45,400 nucleotides of DNA from Sebaldella sp. S0638 (lineage in GTDB: Bacteria; Fusobacteriota; Fusobacteriia; Fusobacteriales; Leptotrichiaceae), in NCBI RefSeq assembly GCF_024158605.1, contig NZ_JAMZGM010000027.1, positions 1-45,400 on the forward strand, given 5' to 3'. Under the pieces are notes generated by a model. The model searched no databases. It worked only from the letters and a program-made list of their open reading frames with translations, and was not told where the DNA came from. Positions within the stretch are counted from its first letter, which is position 1; each line of letters starts with the position of its first letter. Shown piece by piece: positions 41,901 to 45,400 of the stretch. Position numbers and translations under genes: made by a program.

Positions 41901-42569
41901 TTAATAAGACATTTTCATTTTATATGACATATCCCAAAATAAAAATTCAAATTCCATGCTTGTTCTGAATATTTCCTCTATTTTCTTTAACTCTTTTTGT
42001 TTTTTATTCTCGCATAATACATCAAGGTAATCGCAAAACCAGCTGAAAGATTCTCCGAATTCGTCACTTGCGTAAGTATCTATCCATTTATTATAAAAAT
42101 CATTCTTCGGAAGATTTCCGTATTCCTGCTTCAGTCTTTTGGCAAAGTCGTGATAAGACCATGCACAGGGGAACACCACTGCAATAATTTCGGCAATTGT
42201 TCCTGTATATGCAGTGGAAAGCATATTTGAAGTATAGGCTTTATTAAACAGAGACTGCCCTGCATTTGCCGCTTCTTCCTCGGTAATCCCGAAATCTTCC
42301 ATATATTTCCTGTGAATATTCATTTCTTCACATAAAATATTATGTTGAATTTCTGCAAATTTTGCCATATATTTTTCTTCATTACATTTTACCATTCCTG
42401 CGGCAAATACCTTGGCATATTCCATTAGATACTGATAATCCTGTATAAGATAAAATTTGAATTTTTCCTTTTCCAGAGTTCCCATCCCCAATTCCTGTAA
42501 AAACGGATGTTTGTAACATTCTTCCCAGATTTTCCCGGCTTTTTCTTTTAAAGTTTCTGAAAATGACAT
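41901..42569 (-). CDS. tenA: Thiaminase II / aminopyrimidine aminohydrolase
   Basis: 222 residues, all-helical TenA fold. It salvages the pyrimidine moiety from degraded thiamine. The catalytic cysteine falls at position 135 (VVFPCAWSYHDF), the standard TenA number, with D44 (LIQDYQYL) and the C-terminal FLFWDMSYKM conserved. Ribosome binding site CAGGGAGGAAATTAT precedes the ATG, 17 bases after thiE; last gene of the thi operon. Confidence 0.95.
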   Translation of the reverse strand: MSFSETLKEKAGKIWEECYKHPFLQELGMGTLEKEKFKFYLIQDYQYLMEYAKVFAAGMVKCNEEKYMAKFAEIQHNILCEEMNIHRKYMEDFGITEEEAANAGQSLFNKAYTSNMLSTAYTGTIAEIIAVVFPCAWSYHDFAKRLKQEYGNLPKNDFYNKWIDTYASDEFGESFSWFCDYLDVLCENKKQKELKKIEEIFRTSMEFEFLFWDMSYKMKMSY

Positions 42570-42586: not shown

Positions 42587-43231
42587 TTAAATCTTCTTTA
42601 GTTTTTTTAATTTCAAAGCAGCTTCTTTCATATCTTTTTCACCTAATATTGCTGATACTACAGCTATTCCATCTGCTCCTGCCTTAAAGATTTCTTCTGC
42701 ATTGTTTATATTTATTCCTCCTATTGCTACTACCGGAATTTTGGTTTTTAATTTTATTTTCTCTAATTCATTGATTCCTACATACTTTGCATCAGATTTC
42801 GTCCTTGTAAGAAACATCGCTCCGGCTCCCAGATAATCGGCACTGTTTCTTTCGGCCTCCAGTGCTTCTTTTACATTTGATACTGATACACCTAATATCT
42901 TATTTTCCCCTATTAATTTCCTTACTTCTCTTGCCGGCATGTCATCCTGCCCTACATGCACACCTGCTGTATCTGCTGCCATTGCCACATCCACTCTGTC
43001 ATTTATTATCAGCGGAATATTATAACTGTCAGTAAACATTTTTATTTTTAAAGCCATATTGTAAAATTCCGCTGTAGAAATATCCTTTGCCCGCAGCTGT
43101 ATTACGGTAACTCCTCCCTCTATTGCTTCACTTATGCTCTTTTCGGCATTTTCCAGTGTAATAAAACTGCTGTCTGCTACGAGATACAGAGAGTAATCAA
43201 CATCTGCCTTGTATCTGTTTTCTTTATTCAT
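42587..43231 (-). CDS. thiE: Thiamine phosphate synthase
   Basis: About 214 residues, normal ThiE size. It joins HMP-PP and HET-P to thiamine phosphate. Visible: YSLYLVADSSF, QLRAKDIS, LIINDRVDVAMAADTAGVHV, then GQDDMPA, GAGAMFLTRTKSDAKYVGI and VVAIGGI. The open frame continues 42 codons further upstream inside thiM, but ATG at 43231, after GATGAGGTGAAAATAGAG, gives the family length and has the ribosome binding site; it overlaps the thiM stop region only by its ribosome binding site. Confidence 0.95.
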   Translation of the reverse strand: MNKENRYKADVDYSLYLVADSSFITLENAEKSISEAIEGGVTVIQLRAKDISTAEFYNMALKIKMFTDSYNIPLIINDRVDVAMAADTAGVHVGQDDMPAREVRKLIGENKILGVSVSNVKEALEAERNSADYLGAGAMFLTRTKSDAKYVGINELEKIKLKTKIPVVAIGGININNAEEIFKAGADGIAVVSAILGEKDMKEAALKLKKLKKI

Positions 43232-43244
43232 CTCTATTTTCACC

Positions 43245-44075
43245 TCATCCTTCAAAAATTTTTGTATTTTCTCCGATAATTCCGTGTGAAATCTTATATA
43301 CTTCATCAAGAAGTGCAGTCCTGAAACTTCCGCTTCCATATTGCCCTGCCAAAGCAAAAGCTCTCTCTCCTGCGAGACCCATACACATTATCCCCGCTGC
43401 CGTCCCCAGCAGCAAATCATTAGAGATACTGCAAAACACTGCTGTTAACGATGTTGTCATGCAGCCTGTTCCTGTTATATCCGACATCATTTTATGCCCG
43501 TTCTCCACATATATAACTCTTTTCCCGTCAGAAATAATATCCTTTTCACCTGTTGCGGCTACTATACAGCCTGTATCTGCTGCCAGTTTCATCACTTTTT
43601 CCCTGATGATATCCTCATTTATATTTTTATCATCATCAGAGACATCTACCCCCTTTGCTCCGGCACTTACACCCGAAATGAACAGTATTTCCGATACATT
43701 CCCTTTCAAAACCGACGGCTTTACTTCATTAAGAATTCTGTCCGCAGTTTCATTTCTGAAAGTTCCTGCTCCTGCACCCACAGGATCAAAAATCACCGGA
43801 ATATTTTTTTTCTTTGCGGCTTTACCTGCTTTTATCATTGACTCTATAGTTCTTTTATTTAATGTCCCCATATTTATCACCAATGCCGCAGCTAAAGACA
43901 CAATATCCTCTGCTTCTTCGGGATCATCAGCCATAACAGGCGACGCTCCTGCTGCAAGTGTAATATTGGCACAGTCATTTACAGTTACATAGTTGGTTAT
44001 ATGATGAATCAGCGGTTTCTTCGCTCTCACGATATCAGGATATTCCTTTATTATATCTGTTATTTTATTATTCAT
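43245..44075 (-). CDS. thiM: Hydroxyethylthiazole kinase
   Basis: 277 residues, full length. It phosphorylates the thiazole HET. Visible: IHHITNYVTVNDCANITLAA, AGASPVMADDPEEAEDIV, FDPVGAGAG and the active-site loop DITGTGCMTTS. Start ATG at 44075, after AGCGGAGGGGAAGATC; a TTG seven codons earlier is inside thiD and lacks a proper site. It overlaps thiD by 8 bases. Confidence 0.95.
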   Translation of the reverse strand: MNNKITDIIKEYPDIVRAKKPLIHHITNYVTVNDCANITLAAGASPVMADDPEEAEDIVSLAAALVINMGTLNKRTIESMIKAGKAAKKKNIPVIFDPVGAGAGTFRNETADRILNEVKPSVLKGNVSEILFISGVSAGAKGVDVSDDDKNINEDIIREKVMKLAADTGCIVAATGEKDIISDGKRVIYVENGHKMMSDITGTGCMTTSLTAVFCSISNDLLLGTAAGIMCMGLAGERAFALAGQYGSGSFRTALLDEVYKISHGIIGENTKIFEG

Positions 44076-44886
44076 GATCTTCCCCTCCGCTTTCAAGTCC
44101 GTTTTTATATAAAGAATAAAAATGATTTGTCGGTCCGTGGCCTTTTCCTATATCAAGCGAATGCTTTATTGCTGTTGTAACATATATTTTTGCTTTCCTA
44201 ACCGCGTTCTCCAAGTCCATTCCCAGTGCAAGATTTGAAGCAATTGCCGACGAATACGTACAGCCTGTTCCATGTGTATTTTTAGTATTTATTCTCTTGG
44301 CATTAAAATAATGATAGTTTTTCCCGTCATACAGGATATCAAGCGCCTCGCTCTCAAGGTGTCCGCCTTTTATCAAAACATTTTTACTTCCCATATCATG
44401 TATTTTTACAGCGGCTTTTTTCATATCATCTGTAGTTTCGATTTTTATTCCTGCTATTCTTTCAGCTTCGGGAATATTCGGCGTAAGCAGATCAGCCGCC
44501 GGGATTATTATCTCTATTAACGCACCCACAGAATCAGGATCCATGAGCGGACAGCCGTTTTTAGCATACATTACAGGATCAGCTACAATATTCTGTGCTT
44601 TATACTCCGAAAGTTTCTCTGCTACTGCCTTCATGCTTTCCTCTCCTGAAAGCATGCCTATTTTCACCGCATCTGCTCCAATATCTTCAAAAACTGCATC
44701 AATCTGCTTTTGGATCATATCAGTTCGTATGTCCTGAATATCAATAACTCTGCTGGTATTTTCCGCCACTACAGATACTATTACACTCATTCCAAAAAGA
44801 CCGTGAGCCGAAAAAGTTTTCAAATCTGCCTGTATTCCAGCTCCGCCGCTGCAGTCAGATCCTGCGATACTCAAAATTTTTTTCAT
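44068..44886 (-). CDS. thiD: Hydroxymethylpyrimidine (phosphate) kinase
   Basis: 272 residues, full length. It phosphorylates HMP and HMP-P. Visible: IAGSDCSGGAGIQADLKTFS, VADPVMYAKNG and the anion-hole motif NTHGTGCTYSSAIA. Ribosome binding site CCTAGGAGGAACATA precedes the ATG. First gene of thiD-thiM-thiE-tenA. Regulation is by the TPP riboswitches upstream. There is no thiC or thiG in the window, so this cluster looks like salvage plus coupling. Confidence 0.95.
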   Translation of the reverse strand: MKKILSIAGSDCSGGAGIQADLKTFSAHGLFGMSVIVSVVAENTSRVIDIQDIRTDMIQKQIDAVFEDIGADAVKIGMLSGEESMKAVAEKLSEYKAQNIVADPVMYAKNGCPLMDPDSVGALIEIIIPAADLLTPNIPEAERIAGIKIETTDDMKKAAVKIHDMGSKNVLIKGGHLESEALDILYDGKNYHYFNAKRINTKNTHGTGCTYSSAIASNLALGMDLENAVRKAKIYVTTAIKHSLDIGKGHGPTNHFYSLYKNGLESGGEDHE

Positions 44887-44913: not shown

Positions 44914-44943
44914 ATAAAAAAAACTTCCCTCTATAGGAAAGTT
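44914..44943 (-). terminator. Riboswitch expression platform terminator before thiD
   Basis: Minus strand AACTTTCC-TATAGA-GGGAAGTT (one U-G pair) followed by eight T. It lies 28 bases before the thiD ATG and is the termination hairpin of the thiD-proximal TPP riboswitch. Confidence 0.8.
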
Positions 44944-44985
44944 CTCTCTTTATATCTCATAATATTTTACCTCAAAATAAAAAGA

Positions 44986-45228
44986 CTGCTTCCCTGCACT
45001 AGTGTAGTAACCACAATATATTCTGTGAAACGATGCCGGATATTTTTTCACTCTGCAAGGAAGAAGATGAAGATGTAGCGGGTCTACATCGACTGATGAT
45101 AACGCCGCAGATGGAAAAATAGACAATGTCGTTTGGCAGAATATATTGTGGTTGCTACACTAATATTAACTGACAGGTTCTATGGGTCAGGTTTTAGCCT
45201 TCTCAACTGCAAGCAGTCCCCCCGCATA
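44986..45228 (-). promoter_or_regulatory. TPP riboswitch 2 (thiD-proximal), split by a foldback element
   Basis: Minus strand. The 5' part (45228-45162) reads GCGGGGGGACTGCTTGCAG, TTGAGA, ACCTGACCCATAGAACCTG, TCAGTTAATATTA. The 3' part (45001-44986) reads GTGCAGGGAAGCAG. These are TPP aptamer elements: TGAGA for CUGAGA, ACCC…GAACCTG, and AGGGAAGC. The 159-bp insertion at 45002-45160 separates them inside the P4/P5 arm. Joined at the TA, the parts align base for base in length with the intact copy. Its terminator is at 44914-44943. Confidence 0.85.
45002..45160. mobile_element. 159-bp foldback MITE inserted in a TPP riboswitch
   Basis: The ends are 24-bp inverted repeats with one mismatch (GTGTAGYAACCACAATATAT at positions 45002-45021 and 45141-45160, plus four more matching bases). 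They are flanked by TA on both sides (45000-45001 and 45161-45162), a TA target duplication as made by Tc1/IS630-type transposases. The arms are each 77 bases with scattered matches (AAACGA, ATTTTT, GATGTAG) around the 5-base centre CGGGT, so the whole element is an imperfect palindrome. No ORF. The relative that mobilised it is not in the window. Confidence 0.82.
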
Positions 45229-45240
45229 ATATTTAATTTT
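45164..45240. repeat. 77-bp direct repeat, copy 1
   Basis: Identical to 45324-45400 over all 77 bases, at a distance of 160 bases. It covers the 5' part of the TPP aptamer and the AT-rich DNA in front of it. Copy 2 runs to the window end, so the true repeat may be longer. Confidence 0.95.
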
Positions 45241-45279
45241 ATTAAAATAAAAAAGGTGCCTCAAAAATATAGAAAGCAC
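45241..45279 (-). terminator. Terminator of the upstream TPP riboswitch
   Basis: Minus strand GTGCTTT pairs with GAGGCAC (two G-U pairs), followed by CTTTTTTATTTT. It lies about 30 bases downstream of the first aptamer and ahead of the second one. Confidence 0.6.
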
Positions 45280-45306
45280 TTAATCAAAAAAATTATAGTT
45301 TTGTAA

Positions 45307-45388
45307 CTGCTTCCCTACTCCAGTATTAACTGACAGGTTCTATGGGTCAGGTTTTAGCCTTCTCAACTGCAAGCAGTCCCCCCGCATA
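45307..45388 (-). promoter_or_regulatory. TPP riboswitch 1 (distal, intact)
   Basis: Minus strand GCGGGGGGACTGCTTGCAG, TTGAGA, ACCTGACCCATAGAACCTG, TCAGTTAATACTGGAGTAGG, GAAGCAG. All aptamer parts are in order: P3 hairpin ACTG-CTTG-CAGT, TGAGA, ACCC…GAACCTG, P5 CAG/CTG and GTAGGGAAGC. TGAGA is preceded by T in place of the more usual C. It controls thiD-thiM-thiE-tenA by transcription termination; the promoter lies beyond the window. Confidence 0.92.
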
Positions 45389-45400
45389 ATATTTAATTTT
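45324..45400. repeat. 77-bp direct repeat, copy 2
   Basis: Identical to 45164-45240. Part of the intact distal TPP riboswitch and its upstream DNA; runs off the window edge. Confidence 0.95.

Follow-up and report, generated by a model that had tools for sequence, protein, structure and literature searches.

Tandem TPP riboswitches are a known arrangement, and the passages available from PMC9481103 give 213 members, many of them likely pseudo-cooperative. The locus described here resembles the pairs described in those passages in that two switches, each with its own predicted terminator, precede one thiamine operon. It differs from them in the mobile element that splits its second aptamer and probably leaves one working switch. 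The element itself is like Correia/NEMIS, ERIC and RUP, as far as the passages of PMC2229807 describe them: these are about 100-200 bp long with terminal inverted repeats and TA ends, lie between genes and give long stem-loop transcripts. It belongs to a genus-restricted family that we take to be separate from NEMIS, ERIC and RUP. A repeat element in a tandem riboswitch leader is also described, in the passages of PMC3049150, for the pneumococcal trp leader; there BOX lies between two T boxes, whereas here the MITE lies inside an aptamer. In the accessible parts of the open-access literature we found no MITE or IS inside a riboswitch aptamer, which is weak evidence of absence, and the passages of a Bordetella paper hold no insertion in a riboswitch.

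The window is the whole of contig 27, 45,400 nucleotides, of a 4.27-Mb Sebaldella genome (G000); the contig ends at position 45400. The genus set consisted of four genomes, namely G000 itself, G001, G002 and G003. The closest relative, G003, whose ThiD is 90% identical to that of G000, is probably Sebaldella termitidis, a termite-gut species. The features of the thiD locus are listed in Table 1. G000 has a third TPP riboswitch elsewhere (C1:60054-60140, 60.5 bits), which precedes an ABC transporter with an NMT1/THI5-like binding protein.

Table 1. Features of the thiD locus, with positions in the window.
Feature	Position	Strand	Basis
tenA-type gene	41901..42569	-	Pfam PF03070, E 5.7e-55
thiE (thiamine monophosphate synthase)	42587..43357 as listed, overlapping thiM	-	Pfam PF02581, E 1.1e-65
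thiM (hydroxyethylthiazole kinase)	43245..44096 as listed	-	Pfam PF02110, E 1.3e-80
thiD (phosphomethylpyrimidine kinase)	44068..44886	-	Pfam PF08543, E 1.9e-98
Terminator 2 (predicted intrinsic)	44915..44943	-	Fold of -17.0 kcal/mol for 44960-44895
Aptamer 2, 3' part (J5-4, P4 3', J2-4, P1 3')	44985..44999	-	Agreement with G003 copy 2
TA target-site duplication, right	45000..45001	-	Sequence
Palindromic MITE, 159 bp	45002..45160	-	Inverted arms, hairpin, family model R1 162.7 bits (by construction)
TA target-site duplication, left	45161..45162	-	Sequence
Aptamer 2, 5' part (P1 5', P2, P3a, P3, P4 5', P5 5' strand, L5)	45163..45233	-	Partial match to RF00059
Promoter-like site TTGAGG-17-TAAAAT, between terminator 1 and aptamer 2	45236..45264	-	Consensus match only
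Terminator 1 (predicted intrinsic, hairpin and U run)	45249..45279	-	Fold of -6.4 kcal/mol for 45285-45235
Intact TPP aptamer 1, upstream copy	45294..45393	-	Rfam RF00059, 54.1 bits, E 7e-10

No match in the window passes the RF00059 gathering threshold of 54.3 bits, and aptamer 1 falls 0.2 bits below it. We call it a TPP aptamer from this score and its E value, its orthologue in G003 and its gene context; it agrees with G003 copy 1 in both position and sequence. Each copy is followed by a predicted terminator. A simple terminator scan called neither of the two; the G003 counterpart of the terminator 1 hairpin folds with -7.6 kcal/mol. The 5' arm of each terminator can pair with the 3' strand of its aptamer, at -10.3 kcal/mol for copy 1 and -8.5 kcal/mol for copy 2. 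OFF switches usually have this layout. Between the two units, the spacing of the promoter-like site is identical in G003 (L129 2554-2582). The site is a weak consensus match; sites of this kind were found 7 times against 1.8 expected in the stretch of the window scanned and 3 times against 2.0 in the G003 stretch.

Aptamer 2 is interrupted. RF00059 matches it with 35.6 bits at 45233-45135, below gathering, and in this match the first bases of the element replace the missing 3' half. Its 5' part, base 45163 excepted, lies within 77 nt that are identical to copy 1. Its 3' part differs from G003 copy 2 at one base, by which it gains a P4 pair. Removal of the element and one TA leaves 81 nt, as many as the intact copy has. 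The joined flanks differ from that copy at 4 positions, which are confined to the 3' strand of P5, J5-4 and P4; the flanks also contain a C-A mismatch in P5. The core is conserved in both halves, with no sign of decay. We also scored the copies with a profile HMM built from 36 other TPP aptamers, which is not the Rfam model. The joined flanks scored 46.4 bits, compared with 52.5 for copy 1, 46.1 for the third TPP aptamer of G000, and 53.6 and 54.7 for the two G003 copies. As it stands, the interrupted copy gave 37.4 bits for its 5' part and 3.0 for its 3' part.

The tandem pair is also present ahead of thiD in G003. Its aptamers are both intact there, 81 and 80 nt long, with 53.1 and 55.2 bits against RF00059. 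Because of these intact copies, the element in G000 is most simply taken as a derived insertion into the second copy. Compared with G003, the target carries two base differences in the 3' strand of P5 (CTGG to TTAG). The G-to-A change supplies the TA and presumably predates the insertion. The insertion of the element into aptamer 2 is confirmed as an observation. The initial annotation, made from the letters of the window, had described a MITE inside a TPP aptamer, and the inverted arms, the family copies and the intact G003 orthologue bear this out. Its 24-bp inverted repeats agree with 25 matches among the first 26 terminal positions, TA included, and the TA duplication it reported is seen on both sides of the element and in filled and empty alleles at the SRP site described below. 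That excision would restore an aptamer of the same length also held, and the joined sequence is not far below aptamer level (46.4 versus 52.5 bits by the HMM, a model other than that of Rfam).

The element is too small for a transposase gene and has terminal inverted repeats, as a MITE does. Its inverted arms are 51 nt long and 80% complementary. Folded as RNA with the two TAs it reaches -62.4 kcal/mol (z -10.5), and 0 of 200 shuffles were as stable. By BLAST only 1 copy was found in G000. Among 98 genomes of the phylum, with up to 8 candidates scored per genome, at least 3 had a match, all in this genus; the plasmid and phage collections gave no match. A covariance model built from three copies, with 89 of up to 590 candidates scored per genome, detected the family in at least 3 of 33 genomes of the bacterial family, again all three in this genus. 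It found at least 2 copies in G000, at least 3 in G002 and at least 8 in G003, and none in G001 among the candidates scored. The matches numbered at least 21 at 13 places, the weakest with E 0.0095, and 3 of the 13 places had built the model. At least 12 places in the genus are thus additional to the thiD site, 10 of them outside model building. The 13 places represent 11 independent sites, as the SRP site and one other are common to G002 and G003. A chance palindrome present once, as the BLAST result could be read, is ruled out by these copies at 11 independent sites. Two pattern matches were not counted as elements: G000:C75 lies inside a long reading frame, and G002:C156 is a single end without a partner in the sequence shown.

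Family members are 132-166 bp long, and 9 of the 13 start with TAGT and 8 end with ACTA. Several lie between co-directional genes or just ahead of a start codon, judged by Pfam matches of the neighbours. At the 3' end of the SRP RNA, a copy is present in G002 and G003, and the site is empty in G000 (C6:66538-66802). The empty site reads GTATGGCTAGAAAAG; G002 and G003 have the same sequence with the element between two copies of TA. These filled and empty alleles fix TA as the target duplication of the family. The thiD site has the reverse distribution, filled in G000 and empty in G003, with the two base differences at the target given above. By eye, the right end of the G003 SRP element and its flank repeat 12 bases of the 5' flank of the SRP gene. 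The four genomes of the genus yielded no IS630-type (DDE_3) transposase.

In the three-sequence alignment, both sides had changed in 9 of 54 pairs. None of 500 shuffles reached the alignment in four of the five measures of the pair-change test, and 87 of 500 reached the fifth. As evidence of RNA-level selection on the palindrome this was rejected: the structure had been derived from the same alignment, and over the 13 copies the stabler strand was sense in 8 and antisense in 5. DNA-level maintenance explains the palindrome equally well. With respect to orientation, 6 of the 11 independent sites combine co-directional neighbours with an unambiguous model orientation, and the element was sense at all 6; chance would give this at 0.5 to the 6th, or 0.016, for a count chosen post hoc. 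The count omits 5 sites with divergent, convergent or unclear neighbours or ambiguous orientation, and at the thiD site the upstream gene is beyond the contig end.

In the computed folds the element pairs with itself. We obtained 55.7 expected pairs inside the element and 2.0 between element and aptamer; in 60 shuffled-element controls the latter had a mean of 22.0 and a minimum of 6.1. P4 formed across the insertion with a probability of about 0.25 when unconstrained (control mean 0.002). When P1, P2 and P3a were held it re-paired with a probability of 0.99, compared with a mean of 0.136 and a maximum of 0.869 in the 60 controls. P5 is absent from this constrained fold, in which 8 nt are unpaired, including 5 of the 6 bases of L5. 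In the best rejoined fold, the element helix continues through bases of J5-4 into P4, so that J5-4 is paired. The insertion point is in the 3' strand of P5, which is now apart from its partner.

The initial annotation is partly supported by these results. The arms of the element do pair with each other, and the expectation that the element would bring the aptamer halves together agrees with the constrained folds. The fold was right but the argument for tolerance was not. The insertion had been placed in a peripheral P4/P5 arm, which is the pyrophosphate sensor and keeps 16-18 nt in 33 of 34 measured aptamers of the bacterial family. It had also been pictured as a giant P5; P5 is removed and not lengthened. 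Retained TPP sensing by the interrupted copy appears unlikely.

We also calculated what it costs the ensemble to form the aptamer core. This cost was 8.2 kcal/mol for the interrupted copy, 7.6 for the joined flanks and 3.9 for copy 1 of the same genome; the two G003 copies cost 3.3 and 9.5 kcal/mol, the latter being copy 2, which is presumably functional. The ligand-free lowest-energy folds of intact copies are likewise not the TPP fold. Because of that 9.5 kcal/mol and these ligand-free folds, computed energies do not separate working copies from broken ones.

In the available passages, the L5-P3 contact is essential for metabolite binding (PMC6414600), P4 belongs to the stacked helices that recognise pyrophosphate, and C77 and G78 of J5-4 are highly conserved (both PMC3764141). 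The passages of PMC6414600 use another numbering, and by our reading the beta-phosphate contacts given there are C77 and G78. Arm length was obtained for 34 of 40 TPP matches in the bacterial family. The arm had 18 nt in 24 aptamers, 17 in 6 and 16 in 3, and 177 nt in the interrupted copy; the P3 segment of the measured aptamers ranged from 3 to 21 nt. Outside the family, 80 thiD loci of other bacteria were fetched and the first 10 examined; 7 of these had TPP aptamers, three of them in tandem. All 10 aptamers at those loci had an arm of 16 nt (9 by script, L015 by eye), and both L014 aptamers were longer by a hairpin outside the P4-P5 arm. Natural TPP aptamers in the sampled sets lengthen outside this arm, and the interrupted copy lacks a P5-L5 hairpin of the constant size.

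In G000 and G003 (L129 2430-2675), the thiD-type aptamers share a short arm of 16 nt and an A or U at the expected C77 of J5-4. Of the other family aptamers, 29 of 30 end in CG at that point. The ligand preference of the thiD-type aptamers could differ from TPP.

We favour the reading, with a probability of about 60%, that the second tandem OFF switch is disabled or weakened and that the first controls thiD-thiM-thiE-tenA. A genus-restricted MITE has entered the downstream riboswitch at a TA within the 3' strand of P5. The RNA of the element would form a hairpin of about 55 bp that keeps the aptamer halves near each other. With P5 lost, most of L5 in an open strand and J5-4 paired, the pyrophosphate-sensor arm would be broken, and TPP sensing by copy 2 would be poor or absent. 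The 3' strand of this aptamer would then more often be free for the 5' arm of terminator 2 while the polymerase passes, and terminator 2 would be bypassed more often. Riboswitch 1 would still terminate at high TPP, so one OFF switch would replace the two-step switch of the operon. The insertion would be tolerated because the first OFF switch remains after loss of the second. In this reading the insertion, the MITE family, its empty sites and the intact pair of the relative are observed, and the folding of the element on itself is a computed prediction; we infer the loss of binding, the default state of terminator 2 and the regulation by copy 1.

Several results argue for this reading. The two aptamers each have a predicted terminator with antiterminator pairing and are intact in G003, and tandem TPP pairs are already known from the passages of PMC9481103. 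The arm is 177 nt compared with 16-18 in the other family aptamers measured, although P3 takes lengths of 3 to 21 nt there, and it is 16 nt in 10 of 10 aptamers at other thiD loci. The L5-P3 contact is essential according to the passages of PMC6414600, and J5-4 is highly conserved according to those of PMC3764141. P5 is missing and J5-4 is paired in the constrained fold, and copy 2 has a C-A mismatch in P5 even without the element. Other results argue against a disabled switch. The halves are conserved without decay, and at the single base where the 3' half departs from G003 it gains a P4 pair; the 77 nt of the 5' half identical to copy 1 suggest ongoing homogenisation. The core cost of 8.2 kcal/mol is below the 9.5 of the presumably functional G003 copy. 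The promoter-like site, if used, would give transcripts outside copy 1 and under the interrupted copy alone. Without the 5' part of the aptamer, moreover, the 3' strand and platform fold to terminator 2 (-17.0 versus -8.5 kcal/mol). Because this fold beats the antiterminator duplex, a read-through default is not what equilibrium folding predicts, and whether terminator 2 is open or shut by default would hinge on the order of folding during transcription.

Three other outcomes were considered. The element could fold first, rejoin the halves and stack on P4. The split aptamer, held by a transposon hairpin of 160 nt, would then still bind its ligand, if with an affinity that may be reduced, and would control terminator 2. 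Sensing would need no more than P4 and the pyrimidine-sensor helix, or else the UCAG-L5 strand would manage to dock in the absence of P5. The excess of inside over cross pairs (55.7 to 2.0), P4 at 0.99 with P1, P2 and P3a held (mean of 0.136 with shuffled elements) and the conserved halves speak for it. We consider it unlikely, in view of the lost P5 and L5 hairpin, the paired J5-4 in the best rejoined fold, the constant arm of 16-18 nt in the 33 other family aptamers and a P4 of only about 0.25 when unconstrained. If true, a mobile element would have been turned into a structural arm of a natural riboswitch. RNase III might instead cut the leader hairpin, which would separate the halves and trim the thiD mRNA, with processing altered more than sensing. 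The stem is long and almost perfectly paired (25 of the first 26 positions, -62.4 kcal/mol), which suits such cutting, and Neisseria NEMIS transcripts are proposed RNase III substrates in the passages of PMC2229807. Cutting acts on the finished RNA, however, and would not by itself settle how terminator 2 is regulated; as the main effect we regard it as conceivable but doubtful. Constitutive termination would arise if the element blocked the antiterminator or stopped the polymerase, and the thiD operon would then be expressed at a low level unless a promoter lies further downstream. Terminator 2 is strong at -17.0 kcal/mol and forms even without the 5' part of the aptamer, and the element contains a terminator-like hairpin at 45090-45072. 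The latter is followed by a mixed tract (TTCATCTTCT) and no U run, though, each gene of the operon is an open reading frame that matches its Pfam family in full, and the several family copies between co-directional genes suggest that read-through is tolerated. This outcome, too, we judge improbable.

The position of the locus at the contig end allows one more explanation, a misjoin that produced the element or the tandem order. Aptamer 1 lies 7 bases from the contig end, and the last 77 bases of the contig (45324-45400) repeat 45164-45240 exactly. No other contig with this stretch was found among the 40 of 87 candidates scored. A length of 77 is a frequent assembler k-mer, and the repeat looks like an assembly break at a repeat. 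Nevertheless, the G003 chromosome has the same tandem order and a similar linker, the element has its TA duplication and family members elsewhere, and its junctions are some 240 and 400 bases away from the contig end. An artefact is therefore very improbable for the insertion, and only the copy number upstream is in doubt, because the contig stops at the intact aptamer 1. Over the duplicated 77 nt, G003 shows less similarity between copies 1 and 2 than G000 does, and the closer match in G000 points to gene conversion or to an additional copy in tandem. The upstream region of G003 was not found in G000 among the 40 of 314 candidates scored in a search without a positive control.

The results outline a MITE family that occupies TA sites in non-coding DNA of the genus, including the 3' end of the SRP RNA. 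The thiD leader represents a natural insertion experiment within one genus and one operon, in which the second riboswitch copy is intact in the relative and split here. With this pair of alleles, the tolerance of self-complementary insertions inside folded RNAs becomes directly testable, and so does the behaviour of a tandem riboswitch on the loss of one unit.
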